Notes under the pieces: model-generated
Databases searched by the model: none
Told to the model about the DNA's origin: nothing
What the model saw: the letters and a program-made list of their open reading frames with translations, nothing else
Part shown: positions 837 to 47,125 of the stretch, in pieces
Layout of the letters: each line of letters starts with the position of its first letter
How positions within the stretch are numbered: position 1 is the first letter of the stretch
Position numbers and translations under genes: made by a program
DNA from: an uncultured Paracoccaceae bacterium
GTDB lineage: Bacteria > Pseudomonadota > Alphaproteobacteria > Rhodobacterales > Rhodobacteraceae
Reading direction: 5' to 3'
DNA: 64,000 bases
Assembly: GCA_943787985.1 (NCBI GenBank)
Contig: CALSOO010000002.1
Location: forward strand, 62,001 to 126,000

Positions 837-3581
837 TTATTTTGATCCCAAAGACCACCAGCCGCGCCGTTTAGGCTTGGCGGGTTCATCGGCCTTGATC
901 TCAGGCTCGGGGGCCGCCGCAGCGACAACCGGCTCGGGGGCTGGCTCAGGCGTTGGAGCCGGGGCTTCGACCACAGGTTCTGGAACCGGTTCTGGTTCTG
1001 GCGCAGGCGCTGGCGCGGCCACTTCTGCAACAGGTTCAGGTGGAGCGACAGCTTCTGCCGCTTTTGGCTCTGCCTTGGGCTTACGGGCACGAGGTGCGCG
1101 CTTTTTCGGCGCAGGCTTTTCGTCTGCCGGTGCCGCTTTGGCGTCTGGCGCATCTCCGGTGCCTTCAGCAGCTTCAGCCGCCGCCGCCGCTTCCGCAGCT
1201 TTTTGTGCAGCTGTTTTGCGTGGCGCACGGGTGCGCTTGGGCTTTTCAGCTTTCACAGGGTCCGCGTCGGTCACCTCCGCAGCAGCAGGCGTTGTTCCAG
1301 CGTCTTCAGCCGGAGCATCTACAGGCTGTTGAACCGCATCGTCACCGTCCTGCGCGCCATCTTCGTCAGATTGGCCGTTTTGCTCGCCCTCTGTGTGAGA
1401 CGAAGACTTGCGCCGACGACGCCGACGACGTTTGCGTTTAGGCTTTTGTTCCTCGTCTTCACCGGCCGGTGTCTCTGTGGCCACTTGGGGCTGATCTTTT
1501 TCGCTCAACACTTCTGCAGCTTCGGCCTCATCCGCGGCGGCTGCGTCATCTTCGTCAATCTTGTCCATGATGGTCGTGTCAGCAGATACCGCAGCAGCCG
1601 TGGCTTCAGGCACACGGCGGGTTGCCGTTTTGAACTTTTCAATGCTGAAATCAGGGCTGATCAACATCGGATCACCCTCGATGCGCACAGACAAGCCGTA
1701 GCGCGCTTCGATCTGGGCGATATGTTCGCGCTTCTGGTTCATCAGGAAGTTGGCGATACCGACAGGGCAACGAACCAAAACTTCGCGCGAACGACGGCGC
1801 GTGCCCTCTTCTTCGATCTGGCGCAGGATAGACAATGCCAGATTGTCGTCAGAGCGGATCAATCCGGTTCCGTGACAGGCCAGACAAGGTTGTGTGGTTG
1901 CCTCGATCATCCCCGGGCGCAAACGCTGGCGGGACATTTCCATCAGACCAAAGCCCGAAATGCGACCCACCTGAATGCGGGCGCGGTCGGTTTTCAGCTT
2001 GTCCTTCATCCGCTTTTCAACGGCAGCATTGTTTTTGCGCTCGTCCATGTCGATGAAGTCGATGACGATCAGGCCTGCAAGGTCACGCAGGCGCAATTGA
2101 CGGGCGACTTCTTCGGCGGCTTCGAGGTTTGTCTTGGTTGCGGTTTCCTCGATCGAACCTTCTTTGGTGGAGCGGCCAGAGTTCACGTCGATGGCAACAA
2201 GCGCCTCTGTGATGCCGATCACGATATAACCGCCGGATTTCAGCTGGACTGTCGGGCTGAACATGCCAGCCAGATAGCTTTCCACCTGATAGCGGGCGAA
2301 CAACGGCAAGGATTCTTCGTAGCGCTTCACGTTCTTGGCATGAGACGGCATGATCATCTTCATGAAGTCTTTGGCAATGCGGTAGCCGCGCTCGCCCTCA
2401 ACGAACACTTCGTCGATATCACGATTGTAAAGATCACGGATCGAGCGTTTGATCAGATCGCCTTCTTCGTAGATTTTTGAAGGTGCGATTGATTTCAGCG
2501 TGGATTCGCGGATCTGCTCCCAAAGGCGCAGCAGATATTCGTAGTCGCGCTTGATTTCGGCCTTGGTACGTTTGGCCCCTGCGGTGCGCACAATCAGGCC
2601 AGAGCCTGATGGGACTTCGATCTCGTTGGCAATTTCCTTGAGTTTCTTGCGATCTACAGCGTTTGTGATCTTGCGGGAAATGCCGCCGCCACGCGCTGTG
2701 TTTGGCATCAAAACGCAGTAGCGCCCCGCCAGTGACAGATACGTGGTGAGAGCCGCGCCTTTGTTGCCGCGCTCTTCTTTGACGACTTGAACCAACAGGA
2801 TTTGGCGTACTTTGACAACTTCCTGAATCTTGTAGCGACGCGGACGTGGCTTGCGCACTGGCCGGATATCTTCGCTGTCATCTTCATCCGCTACCGACTC
2901 GATGCTGTCATCTTTTGCCGTCGCGTCTGTTGCTTTGGCGGAGTCTTCATCATCGTCGTCTGCGTGGGCTGCATCGTCCGCATCAACATCCGCTACCGCA
3001 TCTTCGGGCTGTGGATCCTTGTCCTCGGCAGCGTCTTCGGCGGAAGGTGTTTCAACTGGCGTTTCCTTGACGGTCTCCATAGGAGAAGACCCTTCTTCGG
3101 TTTGCGCAGTGTCTGCAGCGTCCAGATCAATGGTTTCCATACCTTTGATCTCGTCGCTCTCGACTTCCGTGCTGACGACAGCATCATCGCTGCTGACTTC
3201 TGCCGCTTTGGACTTGGAACGCGACCGTGAGCGCGACCGGCTGGTGCGCTTGGGTTTGTCATCTTCATCGTCGCGGGCTTTTTGCGCTTCGGCATAGGCA
3301 CGCTCTTCCTCCATCAGGGCCTCACGGTCCGCGACGGGGATCTGATAGTAATCAGGGTGAATCTCGCTGAAGGCCAGGAAACCGTGGCGATTGCCGCCGT
3401 AGTCCACAAACGCCGCCTGAAGCGACGGTTCGACCCGTGTTACTTTTGCAAGATAGATGTTGCCAGCAAGCTGGCGTCTGTTTTCAGATTCAAAATCGAA
3501 TTCCTCGACCTTGTTTCCGTCGACCACCACAACGCGGGTTTCTTCCGCGTGGGTGGCATCGATAAGCATTTTCTTTGGCAT
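837..3581 (-). CDS. rne: Ribonuclease E
   Basis: About 914 residues from the start MPKKMLIDA at 3581; the open frame extends further upstream but without homology-like sequence. RNase E is the endonuclease core of the RNA degradosome. An S1-type RNA-binding region begins at residue ~35 and is interrupted by a ~140-residue Asp/Glu-rich insertion with an RSRSRSRSKSK stretch, common in alphaproteobacterial RNase E. The catalytic DNase I-like part has the metal-binding aspartates in AIDVNSG and VIDFIDMDE, followed by the Zn-link CLACHGTG. The tail is low-complexity: Lys/Arg-rich (KRKRRRRRRRK) then Ala/Pro/Glu-rich repeats, the expected partner-binding scaffold, ending KPKRRGWWSLGSK. The long leader (3582-3930) fits known autoregulation of rne through its 5' UTR, though I see no proof of that here. 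Confidence 0.95.
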   Translation of the reverse strand: MPKKMLIDATHAEETRVVVVDGNKVEEFDFESENRRQLAGNIYLAKVTRVEPSLQAAFVDYGGNRHGFLAFSEIHPDYYQIPVADREALMEEERAYAEAQKARDDEDDKPKRTSRSRSRSRSKSKAAEVSSDDAVVSTEVESDEIKGMETIDLDAADTAQTEEGSSPMETVKETPVETPSAEDAAEDKDPQPEDAVADVDADDAAHADDDDEDSAKATDATAKDDSIESVADEDDSEDIRPVRKPRPRRYKIQEVVKVRQILLVQVVKEERGNKGAALTTYLSLAGRYCVLMPNTARGGGISRKITNAVDRKKLKEIANEIEVPSGSGLIVRTAGAKRTKAEIKRDYEYLLRLWEQIRESTLKSIAPSKIYEEGDLIKRSIRDLYNRDIDEVFVEGERGYRIAKDFMKMIMPSHAKNVKRYEESLPLFARYQVESYLAGMFSPTVQLKSGGYIVIGITEALVAIDVNSGRSTKEGSIEETATKTNLEAAEEVARQLRLRDLAGLIVIDFIDMDERKNNAAVEKRMKDKLKTDRARIQVGRISGFGLMEMSRQRLRPGMIEATTQPCLACHGTGLIRSDDNLALSILRQIEEEGTRRRSREVLVRCPVGIANFLMNQKREHIAQIEARYGLSVRIEGDPMLISPDFSIEKFKTATRRVPEATAAAVSADTTIMDKIDEDDAAAADEAEAAEVLSEKDQPQVATETPAGEDEEQKPKRKRRRRRRRKSSSHTEGEQNGQSDEDGAQDGDDAVQQPVDAPAEDAGTTPAAAEVTDADPVKAEKPKRTRAPRKTAAQKAAEAAAAAEAAEGTGDAPDAKAAPADEKPAPKKRAPRARKPKAEPKAAEAVAPPEPVAEVAAPAPAPEPEPVPEPVVEAPAPTPEPAPEPVVAAAAPEPEIKADEPAKPKRRGWWSLGSK

Positions 3582-3903
3582 GGTGTCCGTTTGCACCCAC
3601 GAAGAAGCCGCAGACCCGGGGGCGCTGCAACTTTTGGGAGGTGTCTTGTCAGGGCGATTTGTGACGTCGCAACACATGCGGAGGCCAATGGGCCCCCTGC
3701 TCTGTGTCTCGATGCTTTCGCGCGCGTCATCGCGGTTCTTCTCCGACGCACCACACCCTCGGGCTGGCGCATCCATTCAGTGCCGGTGATTGAAAGACAA
3801 TCATTCAGCGTTCTCACGACCCCTTTCGGGGCCCAATCGGTCTGCTTGGTCTTGGGGGCTAGAGCAGTGCCAAAGCCATCCGGGGTCCAATACAGCGAAT
3901 CTC

Positions 3904-39994: not shown

Positions 39995-40034
39995 TCTGAC
40001 CTGTTAAAAGGCAAGCGCAAAGCAACCAGGAAGC

Positions 40035-40773
40035 ATGAGCACGCTTCTGGAAGTCTCGGGCGTCACCGTCAGCTTTGACGGGTTCCGCGCGATCAACAAC
40101 CTGTCATTCCAGATCGGCGAGGCCGAATTGCGCGCTGTGATCGGCCCGAACGGCGCGGGCAAGACCACCTTTATGGATATCGTCACCGGCAAAACCAAAC
40201 CTGACGCGGGCACATCTTGTGGGGCGATAAAAGCTATCTCGCTCATCGGCATGTCAGAGGCGCAAATTGCCAGGCAGGCATCGGGCGCAAGTTCCAAAAG
40301 CCCACCGTTTTCGAGGAACAAACCGTGCAGGAAAACCTGCTGATGGCGCTGCGCAAGAACGCGGCCCCTTTGGCGGTCTGTTGTTCAAACCCGCCAAGGC
40401 CGATTTTGCCCGCGTGGCAGACCTGGCGGCCAAATCGGCCTTGACAGATGCGCTGTTGCGCGTGTCGGGCGAGCTGAGCCACGGGCAAAAGCAATGGCTG
40501 GAAATCGGCATGCTGCTGGCACAGGAACCGCAACTGTTGCTGGTTGATGAACCCGCCGCTGGCATGACGCCCGCCGAGCGCGAAAAAACCACCGCCATCC
40601 TTGTCGAGGCCGCCAAGACCCGCGCCGTCGTCGTGGTCGAGCATGATATGGAGTTCGTGCGCCGCCTGAAGTGCAAGGTGACGGTGCTGCATGAAGGGGC
40701 CGTTCTGGCCGAAGGCAGCTTGGATCACGTGACCAAAAACCAAGACGTCATCGACGTCTATCTGGGGCGCTAG
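40035..40773 (+). pseudogene. urtD: Urea ABC transporter ATP-binding protein UrtD (frameshifted)
   Basis: Starts MSTLLEVSGVTVSFDGFRAI with an AGGAAG ribosome site. Walker A IGPNGAGKTTF, then shifts near 40215, 40275 and 40365. The rest holds the signature LSHGQKQWLEIGMLL, Walker B LLLVDEPAAGMT and the switch His in VVVEHDMEFVRRL. Ends GR at 40773. Confidence 0.85.
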
Positions 40774-40775
40774 AT

Positions 40776-41468
40776 ATGTTGCAATTACAAGACCTCACCC
40801 TGCACTACGGCAACTCGCAGATCCTTTATGACATCTCGATGCAGGCCAATGGGGGAAGTGACCTGTGTGATGGGCACCAACGGAGTGGGCAAAACCAGCC
40901 TGCTCAGGGCAATTTCGGGCACGCATCCGCGCTCGGGCGGGCGATATCGCATTTGACGGCCAGAGCTTGGTCAGGTTGGGCGCGCATAAGCTGGCGCAGC
41001 TTGGTGTTGGCTATGTCCCGCAAGGGCGCGACATTTTCCGCTACTGACAGTGCGCGAAAATCTCGCAGACCGGGTTTTGCCTGCCTGCCAAGATCCGAGC
41101 ACTTTATCCCGACGATATTTATGACCTGTTTCCCGTTCTAAATGAGATGGCGCACCGTCGCGGCGGCGATCTGTCGGGCGGCAACAGCAACAACTGGCCA
41201 TCGCCCGTGCGCTGATCACCAAGCCGAAACTGCTGCTGCTGGACGAGCCAACCGAAGGCATCCAGCCCAACATCATCCAACATATCGGAAACGTCATAAG
41301 CCTGCTGCGGGACGGGGCGATATGGCGATTGTTCTGGTAGAACAGTACTTTGATTTTGCGTTTGGACTGGCGGATCAGATTGTCGTTTTGCAGCGCGGAA
41401 AGATCATCGAAAACGCAAGCAAAAAGCAGTGCAAGCGTGAAGCTATCCTGGCCAGCGTATCCGTATGA
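40776..41468 (+). pseudogene. urtE: Urea ABC transporter ATP-binding protein UrtE (frameshifted)
   Basis: Starts MLQLQDLTLHYGNSQILYDI two bases after urtD. Pieces: VTCVMGTNGVGKTSLL (Walker A), LGVGYVPQGRDIFP-like, the signature region GGDLSGGQQQQLAIARAL in shifted frames, ALITKPKLLLLDEPTEGIQP (Walker B) and IVLVEQYFDFAFGLADQIVV. At least six frame changes. Last gene of urtABCDE; 100 bp further the IS1595-type transposon is inserted. Confidence 0.82.
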
Positions 41469-41559
41469 CACGTGCAAAGCTCGGCGCCTCAAAAGAATTC
41501 TTCGGTGCGCCATCGATGGATGCTAGCGGATGGCATTTATGCGCAGATAGTGTGCTTTG

Positions 41560-41567
41560 CAAAGTTG
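41560..41567 (+). repeat. Target site duplication, left copy (CAAAGTTG)
   Basis: Exact 8-bp match to 44109-44116. Eight bases is the duplication length reported for the IS1595 family. Confidence 0.88.
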
Positions 41568-41593
41568 GGCTATTGCATACTTGACAAACCCAA
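41568..41593 (+). repeat. Left terminal inverted repeat of the IS1595-type transposon
   Basis: Pairs with 44083-44108 with 23 of 26 positions identical. Its inner half is also the -35 region of the transposase promoter. Confidence 0.88.
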
Positions 41594-41609
41594 GGGCAAA
41601 GCGTAGATT
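41581..41609 (+). promoter_or_regulatory. Transposase promoter inside the left inverted repeat
   Basis: TTGACA (41581-41586), 17-bp spacer, TAGATT (41604-41609), pointing inward to the transposase start at 41637, which has a GAGG ribosome site. Confidence 0.7.
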
Positions 41610-41636
41610 AATCTCAACAGCTTAGAGGTTTTCCCA

Positions 41637-42596
41637 ATGTCCGTTCTTTCCGCCCCATACATGCACGACGAAGCCGCAGCGTTTAAGCACGTCGAAGCGA
41701 TGCTTTGGGGTGACGCGCCAGTCTGTGCGCACTGTGGCGTTGTTGATGCCGCATATCCGCTGGTAGGCGTTCGCACCAAGCCTTCCGCAAAGAACCCAGA
41801 GGGCAAAGAACGCCACGGTCTGTGGAAGTGTCGCGAGTGCCGCAAGCAATTTACGGTTCGCAAAGGCACTATCTTTGAGGAAAGCCACCTACCTTTGCAC
41901 CTGTGGCTGCAAGCCATTCACCTGATGGTATCCAGCAAAAAGGGTATCAGCAGCCACCAACTGCACCGCGTTCTGGGCATTACGTACAAGTCTGCATGGT
42001 TCCTGACCCACCGTATCCGCGAATGTATGCGTGACGGTGCGCTGGCTGGCTTTGGCGGCGGTGGTGGCATTGTAGAGGTGGACGAGACCTTCATAGGAAA
42101 AGAACCAAACATGACCAAGGCAAAGAACGCCCGTGGCTATGCCCACAAGATAAAAATGGTTACTCTGGTGGATCGCACCACCAAGCGCGCCAAAAGCATC
42201 GTTGTGGACGACCTCAAGAAGTCTACGTTGATCCCTATGCTGCAAGAGAACATCGCCAAGGAAGCCTACGTCATGACGGACGAGGCCAAGCAGTATCAAA
42301 ACATCGGTGCTGGTCGCGTTTTTGACGCCCACGGTTGGACCCAGCACGGCGCTGGCCAGTATGTCGATTACAACGATAGCGAAATCCACACCAACACGGT
42401 TGAGGGCTTCTACAGCATCTTTAAGCGCGGCATGAAGGGCGTGTGTCAGCACTGTGGCAAGCAGCACCTGCACCGCTATGCTGCGGAGTTTGATTTTCGT
42501 TACAACAATCGCGCTGGCAATGGCGTTGATGATGCGGAGCGTGGCCAGATTGCACTGCGTAGTGTCGTCGGAAAACGCCTGACTTACGCCCAATAG
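41637..42596 (+). CDS. IS1595-family (ISXO2-like) transposase
   Basis: 319 residues, intact. An N-terminal zinc ribbon (CAHCG at ~30-34 and CRECRKQF at ~63-70) precedes KGTIFEESHLPLHLWL and a helical region (LGITYKSAWFLTHRIRECMR). The catalytic domain has the conserved acids in GIVEVDETFIGK and YVMTDEAKQY and the third site in HTNTVEGFYSIFKRGMKGV, as in the DDN/E group of IS1595. The gene ends 10 codons of non-coding sequence before the tRNA-like fragment. Translation and frame are clean, in contrast to the urt genes to the left. Confidence 0.93.
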   Translation: MSVLSAPYMHDEAAAFKHVEAMLWGDAPVCAHCGVVDAAYPLVGVRTKPSAKNPEGKERHGLWKCRECRKQFTVRKGTIFEESHLPLHLWLQAIHLMVSSKKGISSHQLHRVLGITYKSAWFLTHRIRECMRDGALAGFGGGGGIVEVDETFIGKEPNMTKAKNARGYAHKIKMVTLVDRTTKRAKSIVVDDLKKSTLIPMLQENIAKEAYVMTDEAKQYQNIGAGRVFDAHGWTQHGAGQYVDYNDSEIHTNTVEGFYSIFKRGMKGVCQHCGKQHLHRYAAEFDFRYNNRAGNGVDDAERGQIALRSVVGKRLTYAQ

Positions 42597-42673
42597 ATAC
42601 GCAATGGTGTGAATCATTGCTGTTGCGTCAGCAAAGACTTCACCGCAGATGAAAAGTGACCATATTAGAAGAG

Positions 42674-42721
42674 TGGTGGCAAAAACCTTGCACGGTGCCG
42701 GTTCGCCGGTTGCGTCACTAC
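42674..42721 (-). pseudogene. tRNA-like fragment (shrunken copy of the element's tRNA)
   Basis: Read on the minus strand it contains the blocks GTAG..ACGCA (D arm), CCGG-CGAA-CCGG in place of the anticodon arm, CACCGTGCAAGGTTT (variable arm, 15 identical bases) and GCCACCA (acceptor end with CCA), in the same order as in the tRNA at 43396-43481. The 5' acceptor strand and the T arm are missing. It follows directly after the terminator of the 38-residue ORF. It may be a dead tRNA copy or a small structured RNA. Confidence 0.6.
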
Positions 42722-42751
42722 AAAAAAGAGGGAGCAGTATCCTGCTCCCTC
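42722..42751 (-). terminator. Terminator after the 38-residue ORF
   Basis: On the minus strand GAGGGAGCAG / CTGCTCCCTC forms a 10-bp stem with a tiny loop, followed by TTTTTT. It lies 17 bp past the stop codon. Confidence 0.85.
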
Positions 42752-42768
42752 CTGAGTAAAACGGTAAG

Positions 42769-42885
42769 TCAGATTTCTATACGAAATGCCCTCTTACCAT
42801 ACCACTTGGCCCATATCTTGCGACCATCTTTGGTCGTGATGTAAGGGCGATAGATGACTTTCTTGTCATCGCTTGAGTTGTCCAT
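42769..42885 (-). CDS. 38-residue passenger protein of the transposon
   Basis: MDNSSDDKKVIYRPYITTKD followed by GRKIWAKWYGKRAFRIEI. A strong AAGGAG ribosome site lies 6 bases upstream, and a terminator follows. Basic and aromatic-rich; possibly a small beta hairpin nucleic-acid binder, judged only from composition. The pattern YRPYIT...G+...A....GK+AFRI looks like a conserved tiny protein family, which I recall only as hypothetical. Confidence 0.65.
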   Translation of the reverse strand: MDNSSDDKKVIYRPYITTKDGRKIWAKWYGKRAFRIEI

Positions 42886-42971
42886 GAGGATTCTCCTTGT
42901 TGGACGTAACCACTCCCTCAGATTGCTTTCCACGGCATAGGTCTGGGGGGGTGGACCCTCTCAGTGAAGCA

Positions 42972-43379
42972 TCAGAATGATCTTTCACTCGAAGTTCGTA
43001 TTGAGGTCACCGCACTAGGCATACCGGGCATCCCTGTATATTTCTTGAGGCGATAGTTGTTCCCGTCATAGACAACAACGCCGTCCTGCTTCAGGCGCGA
43101 CAAGAGACTAGAAACAGACCCACGATCAAGTGCATCGCCTGACGCTTCGGTTAACTCAACAGCCCTAGCAGCGTTCAGCCCGCTTCTGCCTTGAGATTCA
43201 AGCAATTCGAGAACTCGAACCTTAACAGAGCCTTTAGGTGCTCTTTTAGTAGCGACCTTGACCGGCTCTTCGCCCATCATATCCAAGAGTAATGACTCTT
43301 GAGCCTGTAGCTTTTCAATCTCTCGCCTAATATTATCAAGGCGTTCCTTCATGTCTTTCATCTTTGGCGCTTTCGACAT
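42972..43379 (-). CDS. Coiled-coil / winged-helix passenger protein of the transposon
   Basis: 135 residues from ATG 43379 with an ACGGAGG ribosome site. Residues ~1-35 are a charged coiled coil (MKERLDNIRREIEKLQAQES). Residues ~48-112 look like a winged helix: SVKVRVLELLESQGRSGLNA, EASGDALDRGSVSSLLSRLK, then the wing DGVVVYDGNNYRLKKY. The start lies only 16 bp beyond the CCA end of the tRNA gene on the same strand, so tRNA and mRNA probably share a transcript. A regulator of the element or of the tRNA is a fair guess; DNA binding is inferred from fold alone. Confidence 0.7.
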   Translation of the reverse strand: MSKAPKMKDMKERLDNIRREIEKLQAQESLLLDMMGEEPVKVATKRAPKGSVKVRVLELLESQGRSGLNAARAVELTEASGDALDRGSVSSLLSRLKQDGVVVYDGNNYRLKKYTGMPGMPSAVTSIRTSSERSF

Positions 43380-43395
43380 AGCGGCCTCCGTAATG

Positions 43396-43481
43396 TGGTG
43401 GCCCCGGTGGGAATCGAACCCACAAACCTTGCACGGTGTCCGTTTTAAAGACGGCTGCGTCTACCATTTCGCCACGGGGCC
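43396..43481 (-). tRNA. Class II Leu-like tRNA with anticodon TTA (predicted ochre suppressor)
   Basis: 86 nt with encoded CCA. Acceptor GGCCCCG/CGGGGCC (7 bp), D arm GCG/CGC with the Leu-like loop AAATGGTAGA, variable arm of 15 nt (ACC-GTGCAA-GGT core), T arm GTGGG TTCGATT CCCAC, discriminator A73 as in tRNA-Leu. The anticodon arm is GCCGT-CTTTAAA-ACGGA: four pairs plus one G.A at 27-43, loop C32 T33 T34 T35 A36 A37 A38. The anticodon is therefore TTA, matching codon UAA. The alternative register giving TAA (a normal Leu) leaves virtually no stem. It lies inside the IS1595-type transposon. Confidence 0.85.
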
Positions 43482-43674
43482 TATGTTGTGCGACCCAAAG
43501 AGCCGCACACAAGATGTCGTAATTTTTGTCAAAGGAGTCAACGGCAATTTGAGTTATTAACGGAAGCACGATTAAGTTGTTGAATCTAATGAATTTTGCA
43601 TTCTGCTTCAAATAAACAAGCAACGGGTATTGCTTCGCCTAGCGCAAGTCGCTGCGAATCAGTAGAGTGGGGCT

Positions 43675-43842
43675 ATGGAAAAAGAAAAATCCCAACTAGA
43701 CCGCTTCAAAGAAGCCGCCCGCGAGATCGGGACGGACGACGACGAAGCGAAGTTCAACGAAAAGCTGGGTAAGCTGGTGAAGCCTAAGTTGACAGACGAA
43801 TCCAAGTCTGACTCAATGCCCGCAGACGGCGATGAGAGCTAA
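43675..43842 (+). CDS. 55-residue acidic passenger protein of the transposon
   Basis: MEKEKSQLDRFKEAAREIGT then DDDEAKFNEKLGKLVKPKLT and an acidic tail, stop TAA. Helical, charged, no known domain; similar tiny ORFs starting M+KEKSQLD+FKEAARE are, as far as I recall, widespread hypothetical proteins in alphaproteobacteria. It is the only passenger ORF ending in TAA; reading through that codon would add about 25 residues up to TAG at 43918-43920. Confidence 0.6.
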   Translation: MEKEKSQLDRFKEAAREIGTDDDEAKFNEKLGKLVKPKLTDESKSDSMPADGDES

Positions 43843-43879
43843 GCGTTAGCGGCCTCACCACCTTCTTACTCAGTCACTG

Positions 43880-43978
43880 CTATTTGCAGTTCTTGCGCGG
43901 AGGGCGGCGTTTGTGTGTAGACACTTTCACCGTCTTCCGACCAGTCGGTTTGGTTTTGCAACCGCACTTCTTAGCCAT
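43880..43978 (-). CDS. 32-residue Cys/Lys/Arg-rich passenger microprotein
   Basis: MAKKCGCKTKPTGRKTVKVS then THKRRPPRKNCK. Eleven of 32 residues are Lys or Arg, with three cysteines, two in CGC. An AGGTGA ribosome site lies 8 bases upstream. The leader back to the promoter in the right inverted repeat folds into small hairpins (44050-44064, 44014-44026, 44001-44012). The function is unknown; RNA or metal binding would suit the composition. Confidence 0.55.
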   Translation of the reverse strand: MAKKCGCKTKPTGRKTVKVSTHKRRPPRKNCK

Positions 43979-44067
43979 AAGGCAATCACCTCGCTTTCTC
44001 GGACAGTAGTCCGCTCTGTTTCAGAGAACGGCCCGATAAGGATGTGTGGCGGTGAGACCGCCTCTAG

Positions 44068-44095
44068 CCTAAGTTGATTCTGTTGGGTTTGTCAA
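44068..44095 (-). promoter_or_regulatory. Inward promoter in the right inverted repeat
   Basis: On the minus strand TTGACA (44090-44095) is followed at 16-18 bp by TTAGGC/TAGGCT, directed at the 32-residue ORF. The -35 half is shared with the transposase promoter through the inverted repeats. Confidence 0.5.
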
Positions 44096-44108
44096 ATATA
44101 CAATCGCC
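44083..44108 (-). repeat. Right terminal inverted repeat of the IS1595-type transposon
   Basis: Partner of 41568-41593; 23 of 26 positions are identical. Confidence 0.88.
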
Positions 44109-44116
44109 CAAAGTTG
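44109..44116 (+). repeat. Target site duplication, right copy (CAAAGTTG)
   Basis: Exact match to 41560-41567. Confidence 0.88.
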
Positions 44117-44876: not shown

Positions 44877-45629
44877 TTACTTTTGCTTGCTGCGGCTGTG
44901 TTTGAGACGGTAACTTTCGCCGTTCATCTCGAGAATGTGGACGTGGTGGGTCAAGCGATCCAGCAATGCGCCGGTCAGGCGCTCGGAGCCGAAGACTTCA
45001 GTCCATTCGTCGAAGGGCAGATTTGATGTGATGATGATGGATCCGCGCTCATAGCATTGGGATATGACCTCGAAGAGGAGCTCCGCGCCAGATTTGCTGA
45101 GCGGCACGAAGCCCAACTCGTCGATGATCAACAGGTTTTGACTGGTGAGTTGTTTCTGCAGGCGTTGCAACCTTCGCTCATCTTGCGCCTCGATCAGGTC
45201 ATGGACCAATGCCGCAGCCGTCGTGAAGCGCACCTTCAGCCCTCTTTGGCATGCGGCCAATCCAAGCCCCAAAGCGATATGTGTTTTGCCAGTCCCTGAT
45301 GGTCCAAGGGCGATGATGTTTTCTCTGCGATCCATATACTCACACCGCGCCAGCTCCATGGTCAGAGGCTTGTTCAGGCTGGGCATTATCTTGAAGTCAA
45401 AGCTGTCCAGACTTTTGGTGCTGGGGAACTTGGCGGCCTTGATGCGCCGTTCAATCATTCGCCGTTCGCGGTCAATCAGCTCCATCTCACATAGCCGCGC
45501 CAGATATTGGACGTGGTCTTTGTTCTCGGCGGCACAAAGCTGTGCTTGCTTTGCGTACTCTCCTTTGAACGTCGGCAAACGCAATGTCTTGAGGTGGTGA
45601 TGCAGCAGGATTTGAGGCGCGTCGGTCAT
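44877..45629 (-). CDS. istB: IS21 transposition helper ATPase IstB
   Basis: 250 residues from ATG 45629, which overlaps the istA stop (ATGA). AAA+ ATPase with Walker A GPSGTGKTHIALG, Walker B LLIIDELGFVPL and sensor ITSNLPFDEW. Works with IstA in target selection. The frame continues upstream inside istA, but the coupled ATG is the natural start. Confidence 0.94.
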   Translation of the reverse strand: MTDAPQILLHHHLKTLRLPTFKGEYAKQAQLCAAENKDHVQYLARLCEMELIDRERRMIERRIKAAKFPSTKSLDSFDFKIMPSLNKPLTMELARCEYMDRRENIIALGPSGTGKTHIALGLGLAACQRGLKVRFTTAAALVHDLIEAQDERRLQRLQKQLTSQNLLIIDELGFVPLSKSGAELLFEVISQCYERGSIIITSNLPFDEWTEVFGSERLTGALLDRLTHHVHILEMNGESYRLKHSRSKQK

Positions 45630-47125
45630 GCCGCTGTCCCTCCCATCAGGCTCATGTAGCTGGCCGGGCGGGTTGTGCCCACATTGGCCTTGGGCAAATA
45701 CGGATAGAAGTCCAAATCCAGCCGTGGTGGTCGCTTTTCGACCCGACACAGCACAAGATGTTTAACAGCGTCATAACCGATCGCACCCAGATCAATGGCA
45801 TGGCTGATTGCACCCTGCACGACGTCGACCTCGAAGGTTTCCAAAAGGCGCAGAACTTGCACGTATTCCCGCTTGCCCGGTTTGCCCATTCGGGCTTCGA
45901 GCAGCCGGTGCAGGGTCGCGAAGACATCTGGCAAATCCCAGCCCTGTAACGGCGCGGCCTGATCCAATGCACCAACCTTTTGTTCAATCAAAGGCAAAAA
46001 GTGGAGCGGGTCGAAGATCATATCTGCGGATGCATAGGATCGTTCGTGTCGTGCAATCACCTCATTGCCGCAACCGATCAGGACCTCATGCACAAACCCA
46101 CGCACATGGACGTCGTGATGCGCATACGCCACCGGCACAGAGTAATCATTGCCGCGATATCGCACCATCGAGATCGAGGTTGCCCGTGTACTGACATGAT
46201 CGCAGGCTTCATATTCTGCGACGGGCAATCCCATCAGCGCATCCAAGTCGGACATCAAACGCTTACCGATGGACATGTCATGGCCGCGCAACGTATCGCC
46301 CTGACGCGCCAAACATTTCTCTTCCAGATGGGCGTTCAGATCATCAAAGCTGTCATAACGCGGCGCGGGCACCATGAAGTTGCGACGTGTGTAACCAACC
46401 ATCCCCTCAACATTGCCTTTGTCGTTCCCGCGAGCGGGCCGCCCAAACTTGTCATCAAACAGGTAGTGCGACTGCAACTCTGTGAACCGACGCGTCCGGA
46501 CACGGGTGCGCTCACCCAGAATCCGCGCCACGGCGATCTTGGTGTTATCGTAGAGAATGGATTGGGGAATGCCGCCGAAGAAAGCAAAGGCCGACACGTG
46601 GCCATCGCAAAACGCCTCGGTCGTCTCAGCAGGATATCCCTTCACAAACACCGCATCCGAATGCGGTAAACTCATCACAAAGAAGTGGATCTTGCATTCT
46701 ACGCCGCCAATCACCCCAAGTGTCTCGCCAAAGTCCACTTGCGCGTGCCCTGGCCGATGCGACAGCGGTACAAACACTTCTTTGGTGCGTCGCTTTTGTT
46801 CGCGCACGTAATAGGTCACCGTGGTCAGGCTGCCTGCGTATCCGTGTTCGTCGCGCAACCGTTCAAAAATCCGCTTCGCGGTGTGCCGCTGCTTTTTGAT
46901 CAGGGCTTTATCCGTCCGCAAAATCTCATCAATGACACCGACATAACCATCAAGCGTTGGTCGCCGTGGGGCTTCTGAACGGCGATACCCTGGCGGCAAA
47001 GCATGACGCAGCATCTTCGCTATCGTCTTGCGGTCCTTGTTGAAATAACGGGCCGCCGCACGAACAGACATACCGTCCTTCAAACACGCACGGCGCACAC
47101 GACTATAAATATCCACAGAATACAT
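45626..47125 (-). CDS. istA: IS21-family transposase IstA
   Basis: 499 residues, intact. N-terminal helix-turn-helix (GMSVRAAARYFNKDRKTIAKML), then the DDE integrase core (HAQVDFGETLGVI, SILYDNTKIAVARI, GNDKGNVEGMVGYTRRN) and a C-terminal beta domain (VRYRGNDYSVPVAYAHHDV). Catalyses strand transfer of the element. Confidence 0.95.
   Translation of the reverse strand: MYSVDIYSRVRRACLKDGMSVRAAARYFNKDRKTIAKMLRHALPPGYRRSEAPRRPTLDGYVGVIDEILRTDKALIKKQRHTAKRIFERLRDEHGYAGSLTTVTYYVREQKRRTKEVFVPLSHRPGHAQVDFGETLGVIGGVECKIHFFVMSLPHSDAVFVKGYPAETTEAFCDGHVSAFAFFGGIPQSILYDNTKIAVARILGERTRVRTRRFTELQSHYLFDDKFGRPARGNDKGNVEGMVGYTRRNFMVPAPRYDSFDDLNAHLEEKCLARQGDTLRGHDMSIGKRLMSDLDALMGLPVAEYEACDHVSTRATSISMVRYRGNDYSVPVAYAHHDVHVRGFVHEVLIGCGNEVIARHERSYASADMIFDPLHFLPLIEQKVGALDQAAPLQGWDLPDVFATLHRLLEARMGKPGKREYVQVLRLLETFEVDVVQGAISHAIDLGAIGYDAVKHLVLCRVEKRPPRLDLDFYPYLPKANVGTTRPASYMSLMGGTAA

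Follow-up and report, generated by a model that had tools for sequence, protein, structure and literature searches.

A transposon-borne leucine-type tRNA with a UUA anticodon and a co-varying partial copy predicted to encode its antisense RNA

Ochre suppressors derived from leucine or tyrosine transfer RNAs (tRNAs) of Escherichia coli are laboratory mutants of host genes, and transposons of the IS1595 family carry passenger genes. Allo-tRNAs (Mukai 2017, as reviewed in PMC7609411) combine a fixed serine identity with many non-cognate anticodons, among them the ochre anticodon. Nematode nev-tRNAs, which have a variable arm and glycine or isoleucine anticodons, were charged with leucine in vitro and gave no detectable mistranslation, according to the abstract of PMC4300185. 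PMC8501985 describes CreTA, an addiction module made of two RNAs: its toxin, CreT, acts by sequestering a tRNA and is itself repressed by a CRISPR effector that CreA guides. Here we describe a locus in a 64,000-nucleotide (nt) stretch of DNA from an uncultured marine Paracoccaceae bacterium (contig CALSOO010000002.1; the whole stretch is called the window). A leucine-type tRNA with the anticodon UUA lies at 43396-43481, inside an IS1595-type transposon that also holds a partial copy of the tRNA. What can be read directly from the DNA is the tRNA with its transposon, the different anticodons of its relatives and the co-variation of copy and tRNA. We propose that tRNA and copy form part of a mobile module that joins a mistranslating tRNA to a co-evolving antisense RNA, which would silence it, likely as RNA-RNA addiction, a proposal for which we see the chances as balanced.

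The tRNA and its partial copy

ARAGORN called tRNA-Stop(tta) at exactly 43396-43481 on the reverse strand, and the Rfam model RF00005 matched 43399-43481 with 56.9 bits against a gathering score of 29. The cloverleaf is complete, with an acceptor stem of 7 base pairs (bp), a D stem of 3 bp, a T stem of 5 bp, a class II variable arm, A73 and an encoded CCA end. The anticodon stem pairs GCCGT with ACGGA around the loop CTTTAAA, its outermost pair, G27-A43, being non-standard; when the sequence was read by eye in the register that places TAA at 34-36, the stem kept a single G-U pair. These results confirm a genuine, complete tRNA with the anticodon UUA. An earlier note, made from the letters of the window alone, had put UUA at 34-36 and dismissed the TAA register, and on both points it agrees with the ARAGORN call and the stem. 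Its description of a leucine-like class II body with A73 was borne out by alignment.

The body has the leucine form (class II arm, A73 and a leucine-type D-arm, judged against the leucine tRNAs of its own assembly), while the anticodon is not one for leucine. By alignment score the nearest tRNA in the assembly was Leu caa, at 66% identity; Arg cct came second by score, yet had the higher raw identity (69%). A tyrosine origin, by change of GUA to UUA, was dropped because the D-arm, read by eye, is of the leucine type. Rfam gave 36 tRNA matches across the assembly, and the 33 stretches around other tRNAs held the leucine tRNAs taa, caa, tag, cag and gag once each, so that the UUA tRNA is supernumerary. 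The tRNAs found in the assembly included no tRNA-Tyr, and there was no match in it to GACTGTAAATC; as the assembly is 94% complete, the missing tRNA-Tyr may be a gap.

The partial copy lies beyond the stop codon of the transposase, some 784 nt away from the tRNA start. In it 15 nt of the variable arm recur without change, along with a portion of the D-arm and the CCACCAC end, and in place of the anticodon arm there is a hairpin with the loop CGAA (UUCG on the other strand). We compared 16 elements (the window, L044, L046-L050, L052, L057, L063-L067, L069 and L078), all recovered by searches with the winged-helix protein encoded next to the tRNA; a 17th, L060, was found by tRNA pattern, is cut short downstream and is included in the counts of 17 tRNAs. 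Each of the 16 elements repeats its own variable arm over 10-15 nt on the same strand, against 5-8 nt on the opposite strand. Unrelated pairs averaged 6.8 nt and reached 10 in 1 of 210, and shuffled arms did so in 40 of 3200. Eleven distinct variable-arm sequences occur among the 16 elements, and in every case the copy agrees with its own arm, even at loop positions (for example ACCTTCCTAGGG in L044, CACCCTCCAAGGT in L046, GGCGTCCTCACGGG in L065 and GTCCTGATGGGCT in L078). A CCACCAC-type 3'-end piece was copied as well in many elements. Acceptor windows (5-9 nt) and anticodon windows (6-8 nt) were not repeated in the copy, and the T window was repeated only in L057, over 11 nt of its second tRNA.

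Read from the opposite strand, the copy would yield an RNA complementary to the tRNA. Predicted binding between tRNA and opposite-strand RNA averaged -21.6 kcal/mol for an element's own pair and -7.8 for other pairs, against -2.4 (own) and -3.4 (others) for same-strand RNA. In the complex predicted for the window, the tRNA is paired through its 3' end, its variable arm and its D-arm, and its T hairpin is looped out. When the window's antisense RNA was set against 36 distinct tRNAs of the assembly, its own tRNA scored -22.7 and the best of the other 35 scored -7.9, and no host leucine tRNA did better than -4.7. The predicted pairing of tRNA and antisense RNA has strong support from sequence.

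Signals for transcription were scored in the same elements. The mean promoter-like score upstream of the antisense RNA was equalled in 0 of 300 shuffle sets, as was the score upstream of the tRNA; on the sense side of the copy the signal was weaker, with 20 of 300 sets as high. A terminator on the sense strand lay directly before the copy in 9 of 16 elements, compared with 51 of 960 background windows. Three elements, L057, L069 and L078, carry a second tRNA whose end lies 18-39 nt from the copied stretch of variable arm, so that antisense transcription continuing this far would complement it in full; this layout fits control of both odd tRNAs by a single antisense RNA. The second tRNAs of L057 and L078 scored best against arginine tRNAs although gct is a serine anticodon, with a methionine tRNA one point behind in L057, and that of L069 scored best against methionine and then arginine tRNAs.

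Among the 17 related tRNAs, standard pairs filled 96.7% of stem cells and double-sided changes occurred at 17 of 23 stem pairs. Neither value was reached in 500 shuffles, so the cloverleaf is not a product of chance, and on the evidence of these alignments it is under strong selection as a tRNA. U33 was invariant (17/17) and position 37 was a purine in all rows, by eye; the outermost pair of the anticodon stem was unpaired in 11 of 17, while the other four of its five pairs were kept in every row. The anticodon itself was TTA in 10 of the 16 elements, TGG in two, TCC in two, TTT in one and ACC in one. At least six anticodon changes were needed on a tree of the winged-helix protein, with 8 of its 14 inner branches drawn open. 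The anticodon loop of L063, TTTGGGT, is that of tRNA-Pro(tgg) in the window's genome. The tRNA with TTT, in Thalassovita litoralis (L050:3399-3484), is otherwise like that of the window and puts an anticodon for the lysine codon AAA on a leucine body; the variable arm and the copy of L050 nevertheless match those of the window over 15 nt.

Two further loci hold tRNAs of this kind. L082, from a 6.5-Mb genome, has two tandem, nearly identical leucine-body tRNAs with the alanine anticodon TGC (1871-1959 and 2119-2207, both +), near a weak winged-helix match. L056, a contig from IMG/VR, has a leucine-like TTA tRNA (3569-3655, +) and no winged-helix match, and its anticodon stem resembles those of the module tRNAs.

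The earlier note had counted a freely varying loop against its suppressor reading, and half of this is seen: the anticodon does vary among relatives, but U33 and four stem pairs are constant. The role it had suggested, the spread of UAA read-through across the host, is not supported. Relatives carry UUU, UGG, UCC and ACC in the same type of body, so reading UAA is not their common property, and all 16 elements have the co-varying copy, which from its other strand would pair with the tRNA and probably silence it. Free suppression of UAA as a general role is rejected because of these other anticodons. Among the stops of 23 long, mechanically called open reading frames (ORFs) in the window, 11 were TAA, 7 TGA and 5 TAG; with UAA the commonest, free suppression would probably be costly.

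Carrier elements and the search for relatives

The carrier has all the marks of an IS1595 transposon, namely the transposase, inverted ends and an 8-bp duplication (Table 1). An identical direct repeat, CAAAGTTG, flanks it at 41560-41567 and 44109-44116; the inverted repeat was computed and the flanking 8-mers were read by eye. The mobile carrier proposed in the earlier note is therefore real: it has a target duplication, and other Rhodobacteraceae hold homologues. When 13 loci were scanned by script, perfect 8-bp duplications came out in four (L047, 2,697 bp; L048, 3,090 bp; L050, 2,295 bp; L069, 2,887 bp), and none was resolved for L046, L049, L057 and L063-L067. Within the DNA fetched, L063, L065, L066 and L067 gave no tblastn match to the window's transposase, so the module is not tied to that transposase. 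ORFs of integrase-like or phage type, judged from their translations by eye, lie beside the partial copy in L063-L065. A link to transposase mRNA alone was weakened by these four elements and by the neighbouring ORFs of integrase-like or phage type.

The start codon of the winged-helix gene follows the tRNA by 4-29 nt in 17 of 17 elements, and the gene is present in a single copy in the window's own genome. At E 0.001 the protein matched nothing in Pfam or PHROG, and at 0.01 nothing in PADLOC. An AlphaFold model (mean predicted local distance difference test, pLDDT, 72.5; predicted template-modelling score, pTM, 0.46) shows a long helix followed by a winged-helix-like fold, and structure matches were weak (best E 0.011), several of them being winged-helix regulators.

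Table 1. Positions of the features described; coordinates refer to the window unless a locus is named.
Feature	Position	Strand	Basis or detail
IS1595-type transposon, 2,541 bp	41568..44108	.	Terminal inverted repeats GGCTATTGCATACTTGACAAACCC.. / ..GGGTTTGTCAAATATACAATCGCC
IS1595/ISXO2-type transposase, 319 amino acids (aa)	41637..42596	+	Pfam PF12762 E 1.5e-30, PF12760 E 2.6e-11
Candidate promoter for antisense RNA	42639..42668	+	TTCACC-18-TATTAG
Predicted antisense (anti-tRNA) element; partial tRNA copy	42673..42718	+ (antisense); - (copy)
Predicted antisense complementarity to tRNA	42673-42679 (3' end), 42683-42697 (variable arm)	+	Plus D-arm GACGCA
Intrinsic-terminator-like hairpin and T-run	42722..42753	-	Would end the tRNA-winged-helix transcript just before the copy
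Small ORF, 38 aa (MDNSSDDKKVIYRPYITTKDGRKIWAKWYG..)	42769..42885	-	By eye; DNA alignment with L045; region aligns with L045/L047
Coiled-coil plus winged-helix protein, 135 aa	42972..43379	-	ATG 16 nt past tRNA 3' end
Class II leucine-like tRNA, anticodon UUA, predicted ochre suppressor, CCA encoded	43396..43481	-	ARAGORN, Rfam, alignment
tRNA variable-arm stretch (CACCGTGCAAGGTTT)	43424..43438	-	Exact repeat present in partial copy
Small divergent ORF, 55 aa (MEKEKSQLDRFKEAAREIGTDDDEAKFNEKL..)	43675..43842	+	By eye; similar ORFs in L045, L044, L057
Small ORF, 32 aa (MAKKCGCKTKPTGRKTVKVSTHKRRPPRKNCK)	43880..43978	-	By eye
Second class I tRNA, gct, between winged-helix gene and copy	L057:1602-1676	-
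Second class I tRNA, gct, between winged-helix gene and copy	L078:676-751	-
Second class I tRNA, acc, between winged-helix gene and copy	L069:3932-4005	+

On one side of the transposon, at 40000-41470, lie ABC-transporter genes whose short ORFs in shifting frames suggest frameshifts or decay. Just to its right, at 44877-47125, is an IS21-type pair, an IstB-like ATPase with a Mu-type transposase.

Relatives were sought by tRNA pattern and by protein. A TTA-type pattern matched 3 of 295 genomes in a family sample, and a pattern allowing TTT as well matched 6 of 390 in an order sample, the own genome counted in both; a narrower TTA-type pattern matched 1 of 385 in a class sample, the own genome, and 0 of the 384 others. 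Such patterns bias the anticodon, and later searches therefore used the winged-helix protein only; the query alignments were partly seeded from pattern hits, so some bias toward TTA carriers may remain. Protein searches gave five loci in genome contigs and seven in viral contigs, and matched 6 of 385 genomes in the class sample and 12 of 390 in the order sample. The six strong matches of the order sample (E 6.4e-46 or better) were exactly the six tRNA carriers, and its weaker matches had none close by. Eleven weaker matches (L079-L081, L083 and L089-L095) had no tRNA in the roughly 3 kb fetched, L089-L095 being checked by ARAGORN only. Among viral contigs, winged-helix query A1 found none, A2 seven loci and A3 six, all on contigs found before. 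Plasmids gave no winged-helix match and two weak tRNA-like matches.

Four of nine viral pattern matches (L054, L055, L059 and L061) hold no tRNA and were dropped. Duplicates were merged at 100% identity (L045 with L047, L051 with L049, L053 with L050) or by contig name (L058 with L064, L057 with L068, L062 with L069). Named homologues came from Thalassovita, Cognatishimia, an uncultured Marivita, and metagenome-assembled genomes (MAGs) of Rhodobacter and Rhodobacteraceae, which places the host in the Rhodobacteraceae in the broad sense; Thalassovita litoralis DSM 29506 and Cognatishimia sp. MH4019 are named carriers. G187, the one other genome of the same genus examined, had no match to the tRNA pattern or the winged-helix profile.

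Function of the module and competing explanations

In the proposed module, the first RNA would be the leucine-body tRNA with a non-leucine anticodon; that of the window would read UAA and probably UAG. The leucyl-tRNA synthetase (LeuRS) of E. coli does not depend on the anticodon, so the tRNA should receive leucine and would then mistranslate. The second RNA would be an antisense RNA made from the opposite strand of the copy. It may bind the tRNA at its 3' end, D-arm and variable arm, the last serving as an address absent from host leucine tRNAs, and so block folding or charging. The winged-helix protein, encoded in the operon of the tRNA, probably regulates that operon. Addiction is the most likely purpose, in that a stable mistranslating tRNA would be harmless only while a short-lived antisense RNA is made. 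The two parts are linked, with complementarity that co-varies in 16 of 16 elements and with predicted pairing, and one may act against the other as in a toxin-antitoxin module. Antisense transcription of the copy, silencing, and the charging and toxicity of the tRNA are what we infer. The putative antidote does not copy the anticodon loop, which leaves the anticodon free to change, as in L050. We hold more tentatively, as somewhat likelier to fail than to stand, the broader idea of a selfish family in which a leucine tRNA is aimed at a stop or sense codon and answered by an antidote addressed to its variable arm, so that a change of anticodon would re-aim the toxin and leave the antidote untouched.

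Several points weigh against this proposal, in which the making, charging or toxicity of either RNA is predicted from sequence. The nev-tRNA result (abstract of PMC4300185) indicates that a recoded tRNA need not be toxic. In the binding predictions, an element's own antisense partner ranked first in 7 of 16 cases, second in 7, third in one and fifth in one (L069); some of the first ranks were taken by elements with the same variable arm, but L065 and L078 were outscored by the GC-rich L066. The promoter-like scores used weights of our own and elements that are related, so the shuffle counts given above are not probabilities. Terminator-like sites downstream on the antisense strand were found within 330 nt in 7 of 16 elements, a count with no background for that length, and were mostly weak, strong ones following the antisense RNA in L057, L065 and L069. 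The D window (17 nt) was repeated weakly, over 6-9 nt and little above background, and the D-arm part is short or missing in some copies. No copy was found in L060, whose 437 nt of downstream DNA are too few, or in two loci of different arrangement, L082, with its tandem UGC tRNAs and weak winged-helix match, and L056, whose UUA tRNA also lacks the winged-helix gene.

The same repeats might instead be DNA operators. If variable arm and copy were two binding sites through which the winged-helix protein governed the operon of the tRNA as well as the convergent gene for a transposase or integrase, no RNA pairing would be needed; the constant position of the gene 4-29 nt behind the tRNA, the coiled coil and winged helix of the protein model, and the short imperfect palindrome formed by the variable arm all agree with this. 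We consider it unlikely, because the eleven self-matched arm sequences would require the specificity of the protein to change each time, even between the window and L046, whose proteins are 87% identical, and because the operator model leaves aside the copied CCACCAC-type 3' piece and the exchange of the anticodon stem for a different hairpin. The copy could also act on its sense strand, as a tRNA mimic that titrates a processing or charging factor. It is oriented like the tRNA and stands just after the second tRNA in L057, L069 and L078, but the sense terminator directly before it in 9 of 16 elements and the weak sense-side promoter-like signal argue against this. Known tRNA enzymes, to our knowledge, do not read the loop of the variable arm, and an exact copy of that loop would be needless to a mimic, so this explanation is very unlikely. 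That the copy is a dead tRNA fragment, kept alike by recombination between direct repeats some 0.6-1.6 kb apart, is barely credible: conversion tracts of 10-15 nt would have had to leave the adjacent anticodon hairpin, which is very different, untouched in every one of the 16 elements.

Other explanations leave the copy a lesser part and look to the tRNA. tRNAs are known from phages and mobile elements, and IMG/VR contigs contribute 7 of the 16 elements, as would suit a recoded tRNA that counters anticodon nucleases or aids translation of the mobile element, with the copy merely tuning its dose. With a leucine body, however, these anticodons replace no cognate tRNA, the commonest of them (10/16) is for a stop codon, and PADLOC had no match for the winged-helix protein or the transposase; we find this distinctly improbable. 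An ordinary ochre suppressor serving read-through of UAA or UAG in a gene of the element, such as the transposase, has very little probability. Ten elements have a long C-terminal match to the transposase, and in these its first stop was UAG (seven) or UAA (three) and never UGA; both codons lie within reach of a UUA anticodon. In the window, L046, L047, L049 and L050, which are close relatives, exactly 20 open codons come after that stop, ending in UGA in four. Differences in this extension, however, fell evenly over the codon positions (56, 50 and 55 in 10 pairs), against 42, 30 and 192 in the last 40 transposase codons, and synonymous to changed codons stood at 25:78 against 167:52. Lacking a coding signature, the extension does not favour read-through; L050 has the same frame with the anticodon UUU, and the UGG, UCC and ACC of relatives cannot serve a stop codon. 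L044 and L048 have 32-codon tails that look alike (...SESEVVVKPL.R), with their last codons inside the partial copy itself. The 20-codon frame of the window lies at 42597-42656 (+), after the UAG of the transposase, and a stretch around GCGTCAGCAAA is conserved for some other reason.

Significance and comparison with described systems

We found no description of a module of recoded tRNA and antisense RNA in the open literature, subscription papers being mostly outside that search. If antisense control is true, the module would unite a mistranslating tRNA with its own antisense RNA in one mobile unit, a kind of RNA-RNA addiction for which we have found no published account, and the antisense RNA would tell one tRNA from its close relatives mainly by the variable arm. 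Such modules would be a natural source of ambiguity in the code and could explain some of the stray suppressor-like and misfit tRNAs in bacterial genomes and phage-like contigs. Even if there is no toxin, natural leucine-body tRNAs with exchanged anticodons make the tolerance of mobile recoded tRNAs testable.

The laboratory ochre suppressors of E. coli share the anticodon UUA in a class II body and, unlike the tRNAs described here, are not mobile modules with a partner RNA. The carrier resembles other members of the IS1595 family in its transposase domains, 8-bp target duplications and passenger genes; it differs in that its passenger is a recoded tRNA module, of which we found no description.

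The nev-tRNAs agree with the module tRNAs in their form, a variable arm with a non-leucine anticodon, charging by LeuRS being a prediction for the module tRNA; they are genes of nematodes, and the abstract of PMC4300185 mentions neither a transposon nor an antisense partner. Allo-tRNAs, as reviewed in PMC7609411, are similar in joining one fixed body identity to many non-cognate anticodons, ochre included. They have an 8/4 or 9/3 acceptor branch and the identity recognized by seryl-tRNA synthetase (SerRS), whereas the module tRNAs have a 7/5 branch (a 7-bp acceptor and a 5-bp T stem) and a leucine body. Unlike the allo-tRNAs described there, the module tRNAs also adjoin a winged-helix gene, have a predicted co-varying antisense partner and, in five cases, lie inside elements with an 8-bp target duplication. 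In CreTA, as described in PMC8501985, the toxin is an RNA that acts on a tRNA, whereas here the candidate toxin is the tRNA itself; we noticed no Cas gene, and none was searched for. The module proposed here would share with CreTA and with antisense type I systems the principle that an RNA harmful to translation is silenced by a second RNA partly complementary to it.
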